The translations under genes were made by a program, and so were the position numbers. Of a stretch of 41,456 bases of DNA, positions 17,658 to 35,655 are shown in pieces (position 1 is the stretch's first letter; every line of letters starts with the position of its first letter). Origin of the DNA: Gammaproteobacteria bacterium (GTDB lineage Bacteria > Pseudomonadota > Gammaproteobacteria > Arenicellales > UBA868). The stretch covers positions 1-41,456 of the forward strand of contig DUBL01000026.1 of the NCBI GenBank assembly GCA_012960345.1, read 5' to 3'. The notes below the pieces were generated by a model, which saw only the letters and a list, made by a program, of their open reading frames with translations, had not been told where the DNA came from and did no database searches.

Positions 17658-19070
17658 TTAGTAACGATAGTACTCTGGTTTGTACGGGCCCGAAGCGTCA
17701 ACGCCGATATAAGCGGCCTGGTCTTCTCGTAGTGTTGTCAATTCAGCACCAAGCTTGCCAAGATGTAACCGAGCCACCTGTTCATCAAGTTTTTTGGGCA
17801 GCACGTGTACGCTCTGAGAATAGCGCTCCGGGTTTTTCCACAGTTCAATTTGGGCAAGCACCTGATTGGTAAATGAGTTAGACATTACAAAGCTTGGGTG
17901 GCCAGTGCCGCAGCCGAGATTGACGAGGCGGCCCTGTGCAAGAAGGATCAACCGCTTGCCGTCCGGAAAAATAACATGGTCGACTTGGTCTTTGATATTT
18001 TCCCAAGGGTAGTTCTGCAGGCTGGCGACATCAATTTCGTTGTCAAAATGGCCAATGTTGCAGACGATTGCCTGGTTCTTCATTGCTCGAAGGTGATCGG
18101 CTGTGATGACATGGTAGTTGCCGGTGGCAGTGACAAAGATATCCGCCTTATCAGCGGCGTAGTCCATTGTGACTACGCGGTAACCTTCCATTGCGGCCTG
18201 CATGGCACATATGGGGTCGATTTCAGTTATCCATACATTGGCGCCTAGCCCGCGCAGGGATTGAGCACTGCCTTTGCCGACATCACCGTAGCCGGCAACG
18301 ACAGCAATTTTGCCGGCAACCATGACGTCCGTCGCTCGCTTGATTCCGTCTACCAGTGATTCTCGACAGCCATACAGATTATCGAACTTAGATTTGGTTA
18401 CAGAATCATTGACATTAATTGCCGGACAAGGCAGTTCTCCTCGCTCTTGCATCTGGTAAAGGCGATGAACACCGGTCGTGGTTTCTTCTGTGATGCCCTG
18501 CAGATTGCCGACAATGCGGCCATAGAATTCGGGATCCCTGTCAAGACGCTGCGCGATACTCGCGAAGAGCGCCTCTTCTTCTTCGCCGGCTGGTTTCTGA
18601 ATCAAGTTGCGATCAGTAGCCGCTCGGGCACCGAGAGTCACCAGCAAAGTCGCGTCCCCACCATCGTCCAGGATCATGTTGGGGGTCTCATTACCGGGCC
18701 ATTCCATAATGCGGTGGGCATAGTCCCAGTACTCGGTCAGTGACTCGCCCTTGTACGCAAATACGGGGACACCGCTGGTAGCGATAGCGGCAGCAGCATG
18801 GTCCTGGGTAGAGTAGATATTGCATGAAGCCCAACGTACGGTAGCACCCAAAGCTGTTAGCGACTCGATGAGTACAGCGGTCTGGATCGTCATGTGGAGC
18901 GACCCGGCGATGCGAGTGCCAGCAAGGGGTTGTGCAGCTTGGTATTCTTCCCTGACCGCCATTAGCCCCGGCATTTCCGTTTCGGCAATGCGAATTTCTT
19001 TACGACCCCATTCTGCCAAAGCAAGGTCCGCCACCACATAGTCGGTGCCAGAAACGGTTGCAGCATTCAT
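17658..19070 (-). CDS. ahcY: Adenosylhomocysteinase
   Basis: [72 protein letters not shown]-terminal [13 protein letters not shown] at 19070 follows GGAGAG; the supplied ORF begins at TTG 19076. Confidence 0.96.
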
Positions 19071-19109
19071 AGCCAACTCTCCAGAGTAACTAAGCGCAGT
19101 TTGCTTTTA

Positions 19110-19165
19110 AATGCATGCCGTTAGCCGAGCCTGACAGGGATATCCTGTTGCAACGCTTCTCGACA
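19110..19165 (-). ncRNA. Probable S-adenosylhomocysteine (SAH) riboswitch aptamer upstream of ahcY
   Basis: Minus strand reads GTCGAGAAGCGTTGCAACAGGATATCCTGTCAGGCTCGGCTAACGGCATGCATTT. P1 GTCGAG/CTCGGC (19164-19159 with 19129-19124, one G-U), P2 hairpin ACAGG-AUAU-CCUGU, SAH-aptamer-like GAAGCGUUGCAAC...CAGGCUCGG...AACGGC; about 40 nt before the ahcY start. The pseudoknot is shorter than I recall for the consensus. Confidence 0.8.
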
Positions 19166-19229
19166 ACAACAAGGCTCGCCTACTGGCAAGCTTAAGAAAT
19201 AACCGCTCGAGTCAGTAACAATCGATCAG

Positions 19230-20396
19230 TCACAGGCCTGCAGCGGATCGCATGATTTCGGCCTTATCTGTTTTTTCCCAATGGAAGTCGGGGTCTTCGC
19301 GGCCAAAATGCCCGTACGCTGCACTCTTGCGATAAATCGGTCGCAGTAAATCAAGTTCTCGAATGATGCCTTTGGGGCGCAGATCAAAGTGGGCATGCAC
19401 CAACTTTTCGATTTCCTCTTCTGGAATCATCGCGGTACCTTGGGTGTTGACCATTAGTGACACCGGTTGGGCAACGCCGATGGCATAAGCCACTTGCACT
19501 TCACATTGAGTCGCTAATCCTGCCGCAACAATATTTTTTGCTACGTAGCGCATGGCATAAGCGGCAGATCGGTCGACCTTGGACGGGTCTTTGCCGGAAA
19601 AAGCACCGCCGCCGTGGTGAGCGGCACCGCCATAAGTGTCGACCACAATCTTGCGACCCGTCAGACCACAATCCCCATGCGGTCCGCCGATGACGAAACT
19701 GCCAGTAGGGTTAACCAGATAACGTGTTTTTTCTGTGACCATGTTTTGCGGCAACACGGGTTTTATGATTTCCTCGATCACCGCCTCCGACAGGGTGCCA
19801 TGTTCAATGTCTTCCGCATGTTGGGTAGAGAGAACCACAGTATCCACCGAAACAGGTGCACCGTCTTCGTACAGTACAGTGACCTGGCTCTTGGCATCCG
19901 GGCGTAGCCAAGGCAAGCGACCGCTGCGACGCACCTGTGCCTGGCGCTCAACGAGACGGTGGGCATAGGTGATTGCAAATGGCATCAATACATCGGTTTC
20001 GCTGCACGCAAAGCCAAACATCAGGCCCTGATCACCTGCGCCTTGTTCTAGGTCAAGTCCTTCGCCTTCGTTGACTCCTTGAGCGATGTTGGGTGATTGC
20101 TTATCCAGCGCCACCATGACGGAGCAACTCTTATAATCGTAGCCCATGTCGGATGACGTGTAGCCGATATCTCGGATGGTGTTACGCACGATGTCGACGT
20201 AATCCACTTGAGCCGCAGTGGTGATTTCACCGGATACCAAGGCGAGGCCGGTATTGACGAGTGTTTCACACGCAACCCGCGAAGAGGGGTCTTGCATGAT
20301 CACAGCATCGAGTATCGAGTCCGAAATTTGATCAGCCATTTTGTCTGGATGACCCTCAGAGACCGATTCCGAGGTAAAGAGAAAACTGCGCGCCAT
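19230..20396 (-). CDS. metK: S-adenosylmethionine synthetase
   Basis: [75 protein letters not shown]. Confidence 0.97.
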
Positions 20397-20518: not shown

Positions 20519-23500
20519 TTAACTTACCTTTTCTATCCTGATAACCCACCGGTGTTGCTCCAGCTGGTGTGATACGGAATTTGCTGCGTCTTGTGCTTCG
20601 TTTTCTAGCCAAGTGGTAGCGAGGGTCTCGGACATGATGTAGTCGCGGTAGGCCATTAAGACACCATCGATGGCGGGGGATCCTTGGATACCGAGTGCAA
20701 TGCGGTCAGATATTTGTAGGCCCGTTGTTTTTCGCGCTTCCTGAACGGTACGTACCATCTCGCGAGCGAGGCCCTCCGTTTCGAGGGCAGGGGTCAGTTG
20801 GGTATCTAGTGCGACCAGAAACCCCTCCGATTCCGCGCTGGCAAAGCCAGGGGCCGCTGTGGTTTCAACGAGTAGATCTTCTGGGCCAAACTCAAACGGT
20901 TGGCCTTCGACGTTAAGCGTGATGGAGTCTCCCGCAGCCTGGGCTTTGGCTACGTTGGCGCCATTAATGTCCTTTAGCATTGCCCTTACGGCAGGGACGT
21001 ACTTTCCTAGACGCTTACCGACCCTGGGTAGGTTCGGCTTGATGCGATATGTCACTAACTGTGCATCTTGTTCAATGACCTCAATGATCTTTACGTTCAG
21101 TTCGTCTAGCACCTGGTCGCAGTGTGCGTCGAGTTTTTCCACCATGTTTTTATTAGGCAGTCGGACTAACAGGCGAGAGAGTGGTTGACGCACCCGTATA
21201 CGGCTGCTTTCGCGTGCGGTGCGTCCGAGCGCGACCACTTTTTGCACCACGGACAGCGCTTCAATCAATGCGTCGTTTTGCCATGCAGGGTCGACCACAG
21301 GCCACGATGTCATATGTACGCTTACTGGCGCTGCCTGGTCGGTGGAACGAACCAGATTCTGGTAAATCTCTTCGCTGAGAAACGGGGTGAACGGTGCCAT
21401 GAGGCGATGGACCAGGTTGAGGCATTGGTACAATGTGAGATAGGCCGATTGCTTGTCGATTCCGCTCTCACTTTTCCAGAATCTCCGGCGGTTGCGGCGC
21501 ACGTACCAATTGCTGAGTTGATCGACAAACGATTCGATGACGCCGCCCGCACGGTGGGCGTCGTATTGTTCCAGTGCCGCGGTGGTTTGCTCTACCGTGC
21601 GATGAGCCAGCGCGAGAATCCATCGATCGATTTCCGGCCGGTCGGGCAAAGAGACATCTTGTTTGATGTCAACTTTGTCAAGGGAAGCATAAAGGGTAAA
21701 AAACGCGTAGGTGTTCCACAGCGTATTAATGAATGAACTGGCCACTTCCGCGATGATCGCGACGGAGATGCGTTTTTGCACATCCGGCGTTAGGCGGGCA
21801 AGGAAATACCATCGTAAGGGGTCGGCACCGATATGGTCAAAAACATCATAAGGATTGACAATATTGCCTAGCGATTTCGACATCTTCTTTCCATCGCCAT
21901 CCACAATGTGACTTAAACAGATACAATTTCGGTAGGCGACGCTGTCGGATACCAGCGTCGCGATGGCGTGGAGGCTGTAGAACCAGCCGCGGGTCTGATC
22001 GATCGCTTCACAGATGTAGTCAGCGGGGAAATGTTGTTCGAACACCTGCTGATTTTCGAACGGGTAGTGCCACTGGGCGTAGGACATGGCTCCGGAATCG
22101 AACCAACAATCGATAACTTCGGGCACGCGGCGATACTCCCGTCCATTATCGGGATGGGTAAAGTGCACTTCATCAATGGCGGGTCGGTGTAGATCAAGCG
22201 CCGCCAATGATCGACCGCACAGTGTTTCCAGTTCCTTTACTGATCCGATGCAAACGTAGTCACCCTCGCCATCGGTCCACACTGGTAGCGGTGTACCCCA
22301 AAAACGTTCTCGCGATAATGCCCAGTCGACGTTGTGTTCTAGCCAGTTGCCAAAACGGCCGCTGCGAATCGTTTCCGGAACCCAGTTAATGGTGGAGTTG
22401 AGCTCGACCATGCGGTCGCGCACTGCTGTGGTTCGGATATACCAGGCGTTCTTAGCGTAGTAGATCAGTGGGTCACCGGTGCGCCAGCCGAAAGGATAAT
22501 TATGGCGGTGGGTCTCGGATCGAAAAAGCAGGCCACGCTCGCGCAGTATCTCGATGATGGTGGGGTCTGCGTCTTTGAAGAATTGACCTTGAACGGGCGT
22601 GACTTCGTCCTTGAAACACCCGTCGAGGCCGATGCCGTGTACCACGGGTAAACCATGGGCTTGTCCCAGGGCAAGATCGTCCACGCCGTACGCAGGCGCA
22701 GTGTGGACGATACCAGTGCCATCGTCTGTGTTGACGAAATCAGCGGTCAGGACGCGACAGATATCTCCCTCGGCAGGTAGCTCATCGAATAACCGTTGGT
22801 AGCGCAACCCCATCAGATCCGCACCCTTTACGCGTCGCACAATGGTGTGCGGCCCCTCGCCAAGCACTTTGTCAACGAGCTGTGTGGCAAGAATCAGGGT
22901 TTCCCCACCGTGTTCGACAAAGGCGTAATCGATGCTTGCGCCGACCGCCAGAGCCAGATTGGCCGGTAAGGTCCACGGCGTGGTAGTCCAGACGAGAAAA
23001 TAGGTTTTATCCTCGTCGATAACTGGAAAACGGATGGTGATCGATGGGTCGTCAACCTCGCGGTAACCTTGGGCAACCTCGTGAGAGGACAAGGTAGCCC
23101 CGATACGAGGATCGTAGGGAACCACCTTGTAGTCCTGATAAATCAGATCTTTGTTCCAGATAGTTTTCAGGAGGTGCCAGACCGACTCGATATAGTGGTT
23201 ATCGAGCGTGTAATACGCTTGGTCGATGTCAACCCAGAAGCCCATACGTTCAGTCATCTTTTCCCAATCACCGATGTAACGCATCACGGATTCTCGGCAG
23301 CGTCGGGTGAACTCGGCGACGCCAACCTTTGCTTCGATTTCGGCTTTGTCAAAGATGCCCAGTTCCTTTTCTATCTCATGCTCGACGGGCAGTCCGTGGG
23401 TATCCCAACCAGCTTTTCGTGGCGCATAGAAACCGCGCATTGTTTTGTAACGGGGATAGATGTCCTTGAACGTGCGGGCCAGCACATGGTGAATGCCAGG

Positions 23501-23662
23501 CTGACCGTTTGCGGTCGGCGGGCCTTCGTTAAATGTGAAGAGCGGGCGCCCTTCAGATTGACTCAGCGTCTGGGAAAAAACATCCTTGTCACGCCAGAAA
23601 TCAAGGATGCGCTGCTCTAGTTGCGGTCCTGCGTAGCGAGAGGACACCGTTGAAAAAGACAT
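20519..23662 (-). CDS. ileS: Isoleucyl-tRNA synthetase, type-2-like with GIHH signature
   Basis: TFNEGPPTANGQPGIHHVLARTFKDIYPRYKTMRGFYAPRKAGWDTHGLPVEHEIEKELG, VWTTTPWTLPANLALAVG, KKMSKSLGNIVNPYDV; 1047 aa with long C-terminal region. Confidence 0.95.
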   Translation of the reverse strand: MSFSTVSSRYAGPQLEQRILDFWRDKDVFSQTLSQSEGRPLFTFNEGPPTANGQPGIHHVLARTFKDIYPRYKTMRGFYAPRKAGWDTHGLPVEHEIEKELGIFDKAEIEAKVGVAEFTRRCRESVMRYIGDWEKMTERMGFWVDIDQAYYTLDNHYIESVWHLLKTIWNKDLIYQDYKVVPYDPRIGATLSSHEVAQGYREVDDPSITIRFPVIDEDKTYFLVWTTTPWTLPANLALAVGASIDYAFVEHGGETLILATQLVDKVLGEGPHTIVRRVKGADLMGLRYQRLFDELPAEGDICRVLTADFVNTDDGTGIVHTAPAYGVDDLALGQAHGLPVVHGIGLDGCFKDEVTPVQGQFFKDADPTIIEILRERGLLFRSETHRHNYPFGWRTGDPLIYYAKNAWYIRTTAVRDRMVELNSTINWVPETIRSGRFGNWLEHNVDWALSRERFWGTPLPVWTDGEGDYVCIGSVKELETLCGRSLAALDLHRPAIDEVHFTHPDNGREYRRVPEVIDCWFDSGAMSYAQWHYPFENQQVFEQHFPADYICEAIDQTRGWFYSLHAIATLVSDSVAYRNCICLSHIVDGDGKKMSKSLGNIVNPYDVFDHIGADPLRWYFLARLTPDVQKRISVAIIAEVASSFINTLWNTYAFFTLYASLDKVDIKQDVSLPDRPEIDRWILALAHRTVEQTTAALEQYDAHRAGGVIESFVDQLSNWYVRRNRRRFWKSESGIDKQSAYLTLYQCLNLVHRLMAPFTPFLSEEIYQNLVRSTDQAAPVSVHMTSWPVVDPAWQNDALIEALSVVQKVVALGRTARESSRIRVRQPLSRLLVRLPNKNMVEKLDAHCDQVLDELNVKIIEVIEQDAQLVTYRIKPNLPRVGKRLGKYVPAVRAMLKDINGANVAKAQAAGDSITLNVEGQPFEFGPEDLLVETTAAPGFASAESEGFLVALDTQLTPALETEGLAREMVRTVQEARKTTGLQISDRIALGIQGSPAIDGVLMAYRDYIMSETLATTWLENEAQDAANSVSHQLEQHRWVIRIEKVS

Positions 23663-26700: not shown

Positions 26701-28791
26701 TTAATGCGGGGCATGCGGTTTTGCGGTTCGGACTGCGTTACCCAATTGGAGATCAGGCCCGCGGCGCACCTCGGCCCGATGTAGATTTCTCGCCCAGGAC
26801 TCGACCCGCCACCAGAATAAGCGGTTCCGAAGCGATTGGATGTTGCTCCAGAAGTTGGGTGACTTGCCCAGGCTCTGGTGCAGGGTTGTATCGCCCCGGT
26901 AGGTTCGAATAAATCGCAACAGATCGTTTCTCGTCAGCCCGAGGTTGAGACTGGAATAGTGAAGGCCTGCGATGTCTTTTACCTGCCACCTGGTTGGCGT
27001 GCGCCTGCGAAGTTGCATTCGGTGCAGGTCAATCACGAAGAGACGACTCGCATCGGCAGACAGGTGGCCGCCTCGATAACCCGGTTGGAGCAGAAAATGA
27101 CCTAAATAAAAATCGCGGTGATTAGCCCCGCTATTGTGCATTTTACGCGCTATAACCGCCACCTGTTCGATCAGCCGCCGTTTGAATCGAATTTCATGGG
27201 GACTCACCGGGGGATGTGTTTTCCACTCGCTGCAAAACTCCTCCAATGACTTAGAGTTGGTGATTTCGTCGGTGACGATAAACGAACGACGACGCGCCCA
27301 GTTGTACATCCCCCCGGTGGTGCCGTAGGCCGCTACCGACAGTGTCTTAATTCTTAGCCGGTGCAGATGATGAATGCCATGCCACTCATCCATCGCGCCG
27401 AGCACCGGTAAGCGGAAGTAAATCAAATTTTTCAAGATTTCCTGCCAGCCTACCCCGGTATGGGTTTTTATAAAGTAATGACGATTAGCCAAATCAAACC
27501 GAACCGTTCTGCGCCCCGTGCCTTCCGGTTCTCGGTAAGCTTCTCCTTGAGTGCGCATCATGTCGGAGAAGGTGGCTTTGCTACCCAGTACCTCTTTAAG
27601 GTCGTCGCGGTAGTACTCGTCCACTAGCTTGTGGGATGTTGGCTCAGCAATGGGATGGTCTTGACGTAGTGTGAGACAGTGATCTTCAATCAAGTCCACC
27701 GCAGTTTCCGGCATGCGGTAAAGTTCGGGCTTTCCATAGGCAAGGCCGTTTTGCGCCCATTTTTCACGCTCGGGTGACGTCAGCATGTGTGCCAGTGTTT
27801 GGTCGAGGAGAGATTGCTCAAACGGTGAGGAGAGGACGTGCCCCGCATTGGCTTGCTTAATGTGTGCGGCATAACCGCAAACGTCGGTTGCCAATACAGG
27901 TAGTCCGGCGGTGATGGCTTCGAGTAGCACGGTGCCTGTGTTTTCGGCGCGCGCTGGATGCACTAACAGGTCGCCGGCACTCAACAACTGAGGTATATCG
28001 CCGCGACCACCGAGAAAACTAATCTGGTTGAGCACGCCAGCCTTGCGGGCACGATTTGCATAGCGCCCGCGATTATCCCCCTCGCCAATGATCGCTAAAC
28101 GAGTTTTGAATCGCAGCGTCTCCGGCAGGTTGGCAAGCGCTGTGATGGCTCGATCAAGGCCTTTGACCTTGAATCCCGAACCGATGAAAAGCAGCAGATT
28201 GTCGCCCGGCCTCGTTGATAACTGGGCGCGCATTGACTCGCGCTCAATGGGACGATTTGGCACTGGCATTCGGTCGCTATCGAGCGTCGGTGGTAGCAGG
28301 CGAAAACGGTCTTCTTCGGTAAAGTAATGTTGCTGGTAGACGCTCTTTTCGCGTTCTGACAATGACAGTATAAGTGTCTTACTAGTCCGTCCGAACACGG
28401 CTTCCTCGAAGGTATGCGAATGGCGGTAGCGAGGGGCGATACGGTACCAAGGTCCGTAGCGGGGAACGGCGCGACCGATGTAACAGAAGTCCGCGCCGTA
28501 GTAGATATCGAGGTTCGGCATCCTGTCGAATCCGACCACGCAGTCAAAGTGAGAGCGGTGTAACTCGTGCTGGAGCTGGTGATGGAAGTGTTTGTTTTGG
28601 GCGTGATTGAAGATCCAACCCCAAGTCTTAAGCACCGTAACCTTTATCCCGGGCGGTTGCTGACCTTGCCACTGTGAGACGAAAGCGTGGACATCGTGTC
28701 CGCGTGATATGCACTCGGCGGAGATCCGCAGAAAGTCGCGCTGCAACCCGCCATAGGGAAAGTACTTGAATAGACAAAAAGCAAATTTCAT
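26701..28791 (-). CDS. Fused LPS core glycosyltransferase (WaaG-like GT4) and heptose kinase (WaaP-like)
   Basis: N-terminal MKFAFCLFKYFPYGGLQRDFLRIS...FIGSGFKVKGLDRAI...VHPARAENTGTVLLEAITAGLPVLATDVCGYA is WaaG-like; C-terminal YFIKTHTGVGWQEILKNLIYFRLPVLGAMDEWHGI...SGANHRDFYLGHFLL...LFVIDLHRMQLRRRTPTRWQVKDIAGLHYSSL is WaaP-like; continuous 696 aa. Confidence 0.9.
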   Translation of the reverse strand: MKFAFCLFKYFPYGGLQRDFLRISAECISRGHDVHAFVSQWQGQQPPGIKVTVLKTWGWIFNHAQNKHFHHQLQHELHRSHFDCVVGFDRMPNLDIYYGADFCYIGRAVPRYGPWYRIAPRYRHSHTFEEAVFGRTSKTLILSLSEREKSVYQQHYFTEEDRFRLLPPTLDSDRMPVPNRPIERESMRAQLSTRPGDNLLLFIGSGFKVKGLDRAITALANLPETLRFKTRLAIIGEGDNRGRYANRARKAGVLNQISFLGGRGDIPQLLSAGDLLVHPARAENTGTVLLEAITAGLPVLATDVCGYAAHIKQANAGHVLSSPFEQSLLDQTLAHMLTSPEREKWAQNGLAYGKPELYRMPETAVDLIEDHCLTLRQDHPIAEPTSHKLVDEYYRDDLKEVLGSKATFSDMMRTQGEAYREPEGTGRRTVRFDLANRHYFIKTHTGVGWQEILKNLIYFRLPVLGAMDEWHGIHHLHRLRIKTLSVAAYGTTGGMYNWARRRSFIVTDEITNSKSLEEFCSEWKTHPPVSPHEIRFKRRLIEQVAVIARKMHNSGANHRDFYLGHFLLQPGYRGGHLSADASRLFVIDLHRMQLRRRTPTRWQVKDIAGLHYSSLNLGLTRNDLLRFIRTYRGDTTLHQSLGKSPNFWSNIQSLRNRLFWWRVESWARNLHRAEVRRGPDLQLGNAVRTAKPHAPH

Positions 28792-32227: not shown

Positions 32228-32674
32228 TCAACCTGAAGAGCCGGTTGATATGGACTCAAGATCGTGATGGCCGAGCATGTGGCGCACCGCAAGGACTGCT
32301 GAGCGGCTATAGGGAATAACGCGCGCGTCCATTTGTTGTGGACTGATCTCCGGACCAAGGATACCCACGCCGATTGGTTTCATGAGTTCAAGTTGCAATG
32401 CGATGATAGCGTTTAGCACGGCATGTGCCATTACGATTCCGTGGCTAGTTTCTCCTTGCTCGATAACGCCAAGAGCAACCGCGGCGTCAATATCCGGGCG
32501 TTGTAACATCCGTTTTAGCGCGAGAGGTTTTTCCATTGAGCCTGGGACCCAGACTTCCTCGATCACCATCAGGGCATTGGCTGCTGCGATACGCCGCGCT
32601 TCATCAACCATGCACATGACGCGTTCGCGGTGAAATTCGCCGGCGACGAGGGCTAGATTGAAGGATTTGGGCAT
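32228..32674 (-). CDS. 6,7-dimethyl-8-ribityllumazine synthase-like protein (archaeal-type features)
   Basis: Likely ATG 32674 (MPKSFNLALVAGEFHRE). VPGSMEKPLALKRML, AAVALGVIEQGETSHGIVMAHAVLNAI, KPIGVGILGPEISPQQMDARVIPYSRSAVLAVRHML. Confidence 0.78.
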   Translation of the reverse strand: MPKSFNLALVAGEFHRERVMCMVDEARRIAAANALMVIEEVWVPGSMEKPLALKRMLQRPDIDAAVALGVIEQGETSHGIVMAHAVLNAIIALQLELMKPIGVGILGPEISPQQMDARVIPYSRSAVLAVRHMLGHHDLESISTGSSG

Positions 32675-32772
32675 GGTGCGGATGTCTATGGGGCTCAAGG
32701 GGAAAATGATTTTAGCGCAGCGCACGCCCCCGAGGGGTAGTGCGGTTACTTGATGATTTTGCCAAGTTCGCG

Positions 32773-35655
32773 TTACGCGCTGTTGGTGATCAGTTTCTGC
32801 CAGGCATTGGCGATGGCGTCGCGCTCGTCGGTTAACTCTGACCAGCCCACCTGTGAGAGTTTTTCCTGTAGTTTGAAGCGATTATCCATCTGAAGATAAC
32901 GTTCGACGATGTCAGTCAGCGTAGCACCCAGGCTGGGGTCAAGTAGGTGATGGCAGACCAGTGTATGCAGAATAGTTCGAGTCCGACGCGAATTAATTAA
33001 TTGCGGGTACTCCCCAGCCCAGCGCAGCATTAGAAATTGTACGATGAACTCGATATCAACCAGGCCACCGCGGCCCAGTTTGAAATCAAAAATATCATCG
33101 GTGCTAGTCGATCGAGTGCGTACAATGCGTTCGCGCATAGAGACCACGGCATCGCGCAACTCTGTTGGATGTCTTGGTTGACATAGAATTCGTCGCCGGA
33201 CTTGCTCGAAGGCCTCTTCCAGTGCGGGTGAACCGACTACCAGGCGTGCTCGCACCAGCGCCTGGTGTTCCCATGTCCACGCATGGGCCATTTGGTAGCT
33301 TTCGAAAGCAGAGAGTGAACTCACTATCGTGCCCGCGCGACCGCTTGGGCGCAACTGAAGATCGGTTTGGTAGAGGTTACCGGCAGCGGTTCGTGTGGTC
33401 AGAATATGAATTAGTCTTTGGATCACGCGACCGCAGTGGTGTGCTGTTGTATCGTTTTCTGGTGATCGGGTTGCGTCAGATTGGTAGAGAAAAACAATGT
33501 CAAGATCGGAGTTGTAGCCGAGTTCCTGACTGCCGAGTTTTCCGTACGCGACAATGCCAAGGTCAACAGAGTCGAGTTCGATTTTCCCGCCGAGACTTCG
33601 TCGGGCGACGCTCATACTTTCTTCAAGAGTCGCTTCAGCGAGCGCCGACAGAGCGGCTGAAACGGACTCGAACGACAATAGACCAGCGCTGTCGGCGGCA
33701 GCGATCTGCAGCGTTTGCGCATGACGGAACTCGCGCAGTAGATCCATCGCACGTTCGAGATCATTCGCCGGGGTCGTCTCCATACGCCGTTGCAATTCGG
33801 TGGACAGTGTTGCTCTATCGAGACTGACTTCTTGACCAATAGGGTTGAGTAGCTCATCAAGCATCACCGGGTGACGACCAATCCAATGGGCGATCCAGGA
33901 ACTTTGACTAATCAGATTTACCAGTTGAGAAAGAGCAAGTGCGTTCTCGCTCAACAGGGACAGATAAGCGGCGCGACGTCCGATTGATTCGATCACCCCA
34001 ACCAAACGGGCAAACGTAGTAAATTGGTCGGATTGCTGTGCACACGCTTGAATAGCTAGCGGCATTAGGCAGTCCATACGCGTGCGACCAGAGGTAGAAA
34101 ATGCGGTATAGAAAGCGCTGCCGCGAAGGTTCTGGCATAGGTTGAGCAAGCGGCTGGGCTCCGTGTAGCCGATGCGTTGCAATAGTCTTTCAGCGCTCGG
34201 CCTTTCTAGATGGCCTAGCCACAGGTCTGCCAATTCGGCCGTTTCGCTGTCCGCATCAGGTTCCGGTGCAAAGACCATTTGAAAGCATTCATGTACCGCT
34301 TCAGTGTGCGCACACAGTTGGGTATGAAAACCCGCCCAATCGGAATATCCCATTGCGGTAGCAAGGCGCAGCCTATGCAGATCATCTTTGGGTAGTTGGT
34401 GAGTTTGTTGGTCGTCGATCATTTGCAATCGATGTTCTGTACGCCGCAGAAAACTATAAGCCGAATGCAAAGTATCCGCTTTCGGCTTGTCTATGATCCC
34501 GAGGTCCACCAGTGTCTCCATCGCTTGCCACAGCCGATTGGTTTGTAGTCGGGGTTCGCGACCCCCTCGAATCAACTGGTAACTCTGGACGATAAATTCG
34601 ATTTCACGAATGCCACCGGAACCGAGCTTCAGGTCGTCTAAACGATCATCAGTACGCAACGCCTTTTCGATCATCCGCTTCATGTCGCGGATCGCGTCAA
34701 ATGCGCCGAAATCAAGGTATTTTCGATAAATGAATGGCCGTAATATTTCGAGCAACAAATCGCTGTTCCCGCCAGGGAGATCGAGTGCACGTGTTTTGAT
34801 TAACGCATAGCGTTCCCAGTCACGTCCGTGCGTGGTGTAGTAGTGGTCCATGGCATCGAATGAAAGTGCAAGCGGCCCACTGGTGCCATTAGGCCTCAGC
34901 CTAAGATCAATGCGAAACACAAAACCCTCTTCGGTGAACGTTTCTAATAACGAAACCAGGTGTTGCCCGACTTTAATGAAGAATTCGTGATTACTGATTG
35001 GCTTCTCGCTCTGTGTGTTACCTGCTTCCGCATAAGCCAACACAAGATCTATGTCAGAGGAGAAATTAAGCTCTCTTCCACCGAGTTTTCCGAGGGCGAG
35101 AACGACCAGGCGGACGGGGTTACCGCTGATGCTGCCTATGGGTTCACCATGTCGTTGTGCGACTTGATAGTGTGCGCACGCGAGCGCTACCGAGACGGCA
35201 TGATCTGCTACGGTTGAGAGTGTTTCGACAACTTCTTCAAGTTTTGCCCAACCTGCGAGGTCACGCCAACCGATGCGCACGAGTTCCGTACGGCGCCAGA
35301 CTCGCAGAGTGCTGCCGACGTGTTGAGAATCGGCTGCGTGCCCGCGTAATGCAACGCACTGATTTTCTAGATGCCCATTTGATCGCGGTTCGAGAACCGA
35401 ATCTGATCCAACGAGGGAAGCGAATAGTCCGGGTGTACGAGCCAGGCTGCGCCCGATATAGTCGCTGCCCGCGAGCACCTGGGGAAGGGACGTTAGCACG
35501 CTGTCTCCGGCCTCGTTGACAATGAGGGCATCAAGAGCTTGAACTGTGCCGGGTTGCTGTCGAATGGCCTGCCACCAGTTGGTGGCGATGGCATGAAGCG
35601 GTAGCGGCAATGCGGAAAGTGCCTGATTAAACCGGTGATTTGCCGGGTGTTGCAC
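32773..35655 (-). CDS. glnE: Bifunctional glutamine synthetase adenylyltransferase/adenylyl-removing enzyme
   Basis: Duplicated nucleotidyltransferase motifs LALGKLGGRELNFSSDIDLV and VAYGKLGSQELGYNSDLDIVFLY; FRIDLRLRPNG; 960 aa. Confidence 0.95.
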   Translation of the reverse strand: MQHPANHRFNQALSALPLPLHAIATNWWQAIRQQPGTVQALDALIVNEAGDSVLTSLPQVLAGSDYIGRSLARTPGLFASLVGSDSVLEPRSNGHLENQCVALRGHAADSQHVGSTLRVWRRTELVRIGWRDLAGWAKLEEVVETLSTVADHAVSVALACAHYQVAQRHGEPIGSISGNPVRLVVLALGKLGGRELNFSSDIDLVLAYAEAGNTQSEKPISNHEFFIKVGQHLVSLLETFTEEGFVFRIDLRLRPNGTSGPLALSFDAMDHYYTTHGRDWERYALIKTRALDLPGGNSDLLLEILRPFIYRKYLDFGAFDAIRDMKRMIEKALRTDDRLDDLKLGSGGIREIEFIVQSYQLIRGGREPRLQTNRLWQAMETLVDLGIIDKPKADTLHSAYSFLRRTEHRLQMIDDQQTHQLPKDDLHRLRLATAMGYSDWAGFHTQLCAHTEAVHECFQMVFAPEPDADSETAELADLWLGHLERPSAERLLQRIGYTEPSRLLNLCQNLRGSAFYTAFSTSGRTRMDCLMPLAIQACAQQSDQFTTFARLVGVIESIGRRAAYLSLLSENALALSQLVNLISQSSWIAHWIGRHPVMLDELLNPIGQEVSLDRATLSTELQRRMETTPANDLERAMDLLREFRHAQTLQIAAADSAGLLSFESVSAALSALAEATLEESMSVARRSLGGKIELDSVDLGIVAYGKLGSQELGYNSDLDIVFLYQSDATRSPENDTTAHHCGRVIQRLIHILTTRTAAGNLYQTDLQLRPSGRAGTIVSSLSAFESYQMAHAWTWEHQALVRARLVVGSPALEEAFEQVRRRILCQPRHPTELRDAVVSMRERIVRTRSTSTDDIFDFKLGRGGLVDIEFIVQFLMLRWAGEYPQLINSRRTRTILHTLVCHHLLDPSLGATLTDIVERYLQMDNRFKLQEKLSQVGWSELTDERDAIANAWQKLITNSA

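Follow-up and report, generated by a model that had tools for sequence, protein, structure and literature searches.

Background

The occurrence of GxHH signatures in type 2 isoleucyl-tRNA synthetases (IleRS2) is a published phenomenon, reported by Brkic et al. (2023; PMC10485003) together with the millimolar mupirocin Ki values of such enzymes. According to that paper, the natural ALHH IleRS2 of D. radiodurans (DrIleRS2) is fully active with a mupirocin Ki of 6.6 mM, which drops 823-fold to 8.1 µM when ALHH is changed to HVGH, and GVHH in TtIleRS2 and PmIleRS2 raises the Ki by about 200- to 430-fold. The motif swap in IleRS1 abolishes activity (PMC10485003). Work on these other enzymes suggests that the tip of the HXGH helix in IleRS2 is displaced by about 2 Å, a shift that would let the histidine at position 3 assume the catalytic role of the position-1 histidine without the adenine being pushed, and that this bulky position-3 histidine would clash with mupirocin and sterically block it (PMC10485003). 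The published G/AxHH set comprises 86 sequences, and the main text of that paper makes no mention of proteobacteria, which have been reported as generally IleRS1-bearing (PMC4861432). A literature search on a GxHH ileS2 gene in marine Gammaproteobacteria found nothing. What is added here concerns the taxonomic spread of GxHH IleRS2 and the history of IleRS1 displacement in Gammaproteobacteria.

An Altered HXGH Signature in a Gammaproteobacterial IleRS

The window analyzed here is a stretch of 41,456 nucleotides (contig DUBL01000026.1) from a gammaproteobacterial draft genome. It encodes a 1047-aa protein that scored 939.6 bits in a profile search with TIGR00392 (cut-off 621.4), with the following signatures:

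20519..23662, minus strand: ileS2, isoleucyl-tRNA synthetase type 2, 1047 aa (TIGR00392 profile match)
23486..23497, minus strand: GIHH at residues 56-59, a changed form of the class I HXGH signature (alignment and reverse complement)
21872..21886, minus strand: KMSKS, second class I signature, intact, residues 593-597 (alignment)

The minus strand from 23497 to 23486 reads GGCATTCACCAT, which translates as GIHH (G56-I-H-H59) in frame within the ORF at 20519-23662 and occupies the same alignment columns as HIGH of E. coli IleRS and HXGH of ValRS, IleRS1, and canonical IleRS2; the context of the motif is the usual one (GPPTANGxPG-I-HHVLARTFKD). The replacement of HIGH by GIHH at this site, pointed out in a preliminary description, is thus borne out by reverse complement, reading frame, and alignment, and the neighboring residues quoted there (PTANGQPG..HVLARTFKD) match the sequence. 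GIHH is kept in all 60 motif-covering rows of the window's gammaproteobacterial clade, a count drawn from independent assemblies that are about 63-98% identical and in which a few rows represent the same contig twice. In the same alignment, HXGH is found in 25 of 25 IleRS1 rows and in the ValRS of the window's genome. Because the motif is conserved across a clade of independent assemblies while the IleRS1 and ValRS rows carry HXGH, GIHH is neither chance nor an assembly error.

The altered motif could be taken to disable or weaken the enzyme, leaving a degenerate or pseudo-synthetase, as the swap kills activity in IleRS1. However, the reading frame is open over its full length with KMSKS intact, the motif is strictly conserved across the clade in the apparently sole copy of an essential gene, and the natural ALHH IleRS2 retains full activity (PMC10485003). 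A degenerate enzyme is refuted for practical purposes and is given a negligible probability.

Assignment to IleRS2

Domain searches and alignment placed the following features on the protein:

21800..23608, minus strand: catalytic domain including editing insertion, PF00133, residues 19-621 (domain search)
21176..21628, minus strand: anticodon-binding domain, PF08264, residues 679-829 (domain search)
20525..21118, minus strand: IleRS2-type C-terminal domain, PF19302 (DUF5915), residues 849-1046 (domain search)
23477..23479, minus strand: Ala62, at the position of the mupirocin-contacting Asn70 of P. megaterium IleRS1 (alignment)
21908..21910, minus strand: His585, equivalent in position to His582 of PmIleRS2 (alignment)

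In a tree of 122 rows, the protein falls on the IleRS2 side of the long branch that separates all IleRS1. Its PF19302 domain is common to MupA and to the enzyme of plasmid pTML1, and the domain search found no PF06827 (zf-FPG_IleRS) zinc finger in it; E. coli IleRS shows the reverse (PF06827, no DUF5915). Residues 830-1047 contain one cysteine versus four in the E. coli C-terminus (CxxC..CxxC), and the Cys4 zinc cluster, the absence of which marks the eukaryote-like IleRS type (PMC4861432), is not present in the C-terminal domain. The mupirocin contacts Asn70 and Phe586 of PmIleRS1 are described as IleRS1-specific in PMC10485003; where the window protein has Ala62, 23 of 25 IleRS1 rows have Asn, and where it has His585, all 25 have the mupirocin-stacking Phe (Phe586 of PmIleRS1). 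Among solved structures, those of P. megaterium IleRS2 (8c8u-8c9d, about 900 bits) matched best, with 8c8w, an entry whose aligned sequence carries GVHH, as the top single match; T. thermophilus 1ile scored 876 bits and IleRS1 structures 350-382. E. coli IleRS catalyzes the same reaction on the same catalytic fold but carries HIGH, a C-terminal Cys4 zinc finger, and a place in the ribF-ileS-lspA operon. None of these marks of IleRS1 membership is found in the window gene, and IleRS1 enzymes are about 30-34% identical to its product over the catalytic part.

By tree, C-terminal domain, missing zinc finger, mupirocin-contact positions, and solved relatives, the protein is classed as an IleRS2. 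The type claimed in the preliminary description therefore holds, on the strength of the tree, the presence of PF19302, and the lack of zinc-finger cysteines; the placement within IleRS1 that it had named as its refutation did not occur, the protein lying among IleRS2 at a long distance from IleRS1. MupA (NF000257), the product of a mupirocin resistance gene of staphylococci, has the IleRS2 fold and C-terminal domain in common with the window protein, but it is an extra copy borne on plasmids and carries the canonical pattern HTGH in place of GIHH. The window protein scored 824 bits against NF000257 and 803 bits against NF000258, below the curated cut-off of 1900, and is therefore neither MupA nor MupB.

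The closest described counterpart is the GxHH/AxHH subset of IleRS2 (D. radiodurans ALHH, S. griseus; Brkic et al., 2023; PMC10485003), with which the window enzyme shares the type 2 architecture, the swap of HXGH positions 1 and 3, the intact KMSKS, and the status of apparently sole housekeeping enzyme. It differs in belonging to a gammaproteobacterial clade known here from sequence alone. Both sequence marks of the subset, G/A-X-H-H in register with HXGH and an intact KMSKS, are found in the window protein. Since the position-3 histidine clashes with mupirocin, the enzyme is expected to withstand mupirocin at millimolar concentrations with little loss of catalysis. The earlier proposal of a candidate hyper-resistant IleRS2 is supported as far as the sequence goes, the link of GxHH to hyper-resistance having been published with kinetics for other enzymes, and homology supports the prediction of hyper-resistance.

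An Apparently Single ileS and an Empty Ancestral Site

The window gene is the only match above the ileS cut-off in its genome, a draft of 309 contigs (91.4% complete, 4.7% contaminated). The next matches, apart from weaker ones, lie on two other contigs (C207, C77) and were rejected as a second ileS, being ValRS (HMGH) and LeuRS. Within the window, a possible ileS1-lspA pair, ORFs of 960 aa (32773-35655) and 165 aa (32228-32725), was rejected because the two encode GlnE and a lumazine-synthase-like protein. The check for a second ileS suggested at the outset thus found none by protein and TIGR00392 searches of this 91.4% complete draft, and the gene is apparently the sole ileS. Among 100 relatives, each genome carries one ileS where one was found, leaving aside genes cut at contig ends or by breaks in the reading frame, and relatives more complete than the window's genome likewise carry one. 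The exception is a draft genome of the same genus (G003) with two complete, near-identical type 2 ileS genes (C43, L009; C35, L135), 98 and 97% identical to the window IleRS, which probably represent two strains or a duplication. Within the order, GIHH IleRS2 occurs in families f1, f4, f5, f7, f8, and f12, and IleRS1 with HXGH in families f2, f6, f9, f10, and f11.

In E. coli and IleRS1-bearing relatives, the gene order is ribF-ileS(-lspA). On contig C139 of the window's genome, the reading frame of ribF overlaps that of lspA, ileS is missing between the two, and ispH comes next. At 30 further ribF loci, ribF is followed directly by lspA in 15 and by ileS1 in 15; every locus of the first kind belongs to an IleRS2-type genome or to one whose assembly yielded no ileS (G010, G029), and every locus of the second kind to an IleRS1-type genome. 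The abutment of ribF and lspA without ileS in IleRS2-type genomes indicates loss of the ancestral ileS1 at this site. The type 2 gene lies elsewhere, in the order ahcY-metK-ileS2 beside a histone-deacetylase-family gene:

19230..20396, minus strand: metK, S-adenosylmethionine synthetase, next gene downstream of ileS2, conserved in the nearest relatives
17658..19076, minus strand: ahcY, S-adenosylhomocysteine hydrolase, context

Two relatives (L038, L039) keep this order, which was absent from the more distantly related genomes examined. An empty ileS1 site together with ileS2 at a different locus supports displacement of the sensitive type by the hyper-resistant type in the window's lineage. 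Two further observations concern the window. An SAH riboswitch (RF01057, 44.3 bits) at 19085-19167 (minus strand) lies upstream of ahcY, in the gap that separates it from metK, which is a known arrangement. A 696-aa ORF at 26701-28791 (minus strand) is an apparent fusion of an N-terminal glycosyltransferase and a C-terminal RfaP/WaaP-like LPS heptose kinase.

IleRS2 genes do move on plasmids as resistance genes, and the GIHH enzyme could accordingly be an auxiliary copy beside a sensitive housekeeping IleRS1, as is MupA in staphylococci. Against this stand the single ileS found in the window's draft genome and in each relative in which any was found, save G003, whose copies are both type 2, the empty site between ribF and lspA, and the housekeeping character of the chromosomal neighbors. 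This explanation is largely refuted and very improbable. A plasmid origin was also rejected, the best plasmid matches being at most 45% identical.

Phylogenetic Origin

A type 2 enzyme was the best match by score in 13 of 276 sampled gammaproteobacterial genomes (GxHH in 11, HFGN in 2), and nearly all the remaining genomes matched at the IleRS1 level. In the trees, the window's clade and Woeseia-like enzymes form one fully supported branch with a long stem, nested among Chloroflexota GxHH sequences. Chloroflexota IleRS2 (e.g., L049, L048, L066) differ from the window in phylum, carry GVHH, GIHH, or GTHH, and are the closest relatives outside Gammaproteobacteria, at about 48-51% identity. The remaining GxHH enzymes of Gammaproteobacteria are nested with Rhodothermota/Bacteroidota. 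Forcing the two gammaproteobacterial groups together cost 238 log-likelihood units, and a single shared origin was rejected (p-AU 1.4e-68); two independent acquisitions are the simplest reading, with the probable donor direction read from nesting in the gene trees.

Unusual IleRS forms were also seen outside the window's clade. In gammaproteobacterial genomes of about 1.2 Mb (G212, G313), the only strong ileS match (L167, L169, L224) is a type 2 enzyme with HFGN, the fourth histidine of HXGH being replaced by asparagine; a single TGA codon lies in frame within the L224 match. Enzymes of the same family (L225, L226) have HHGH and HCGH, and in the tree the enzyme of plasmid pTML1 (L185, HHGH) branches with this group. 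A Chloroflexota MAG (L058:2325-5879) encodes, directly upstream of a normal GVHH IleRS2, a 1185-aa IleRS-like paralogue with GVHH, a degraded KMSKS (PMHKS), an odd GPITANNPM context, and the IleRS2 C-terminal domain. On a Rhodococcus opacus plasmid, genes for condensation-domain and phosphopantetheine-binding proteins are immediately followed by an ileS of GTHH type (L184:2971-6126), which is a candidate for self-resistance to a peptide product that targets IleRS.

Phylogeny and gene order indicate that an ancestor acquired a GxHH IleRS2 from a Chloroflexota-like lineage at a new locus, and that ileS1 disappeared from the ribF-lspA interval. The window gene is thus very probably a housekeeping IleRS2 with GxHH, expected to be hyper-resistant, that was acquired from a Chloroflexota-like lineage and displaced IleRS1, and nothing found contradicts this explanation.

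Cause of the Acquisition

A separate question, which bears on the cause of acquisition and not on the identity of the enzyme, is whether mupirocin-like selection was involved. GIHH may instead be inherited history, the intrinsically hyper-resistant enzyme having been acquired through drift, availability, or compatibility. The enzyme is widespread in the clade with an invariant motif, no antibiotic-synthesis genes were seen among the annotated neighbors of the window ileS2, and GxHH is already present in the Chloroflexota-like relatives, so that the motif came with the acquired gene. We somewhat favor this account. Two observations count against it, namely at least two independent GxHH acquisitions by Gammaproteobacteria and a seawater Pseudoalteromonas plasmid, pTML1, that carries ileS among polyketide-type genes; antibiotic selection by IleRS inhibitors is therefore a possible cause of the displacement. 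The fuller proposal, that GxHH IleRS2 displaced IleRS1 at least twice independently in Gammaproteobacteria, from Chloroflexota-like and Rhodothermota/Bacteroidota-like donors, under selection by IleRS inhibitors of other bacteria in the habitat, is considered rather unlikely as a whole; the displacement in it is supported, and the selection is a conjecture.

Implications

With the window's clade, a published resistance-associated change of the active site is extended to uncultured Gammaproteobacteria. The case shows an essential enzyme cleanly replaced in nature, with the site of the old gene still recognizable, and offers a setting for the joint study of intrinsic antibiotic resistance and gene displacement. 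As genes of this kind are chromosomal housekeeping genes, surveillance should not call them acquired resistance of the mupA type.
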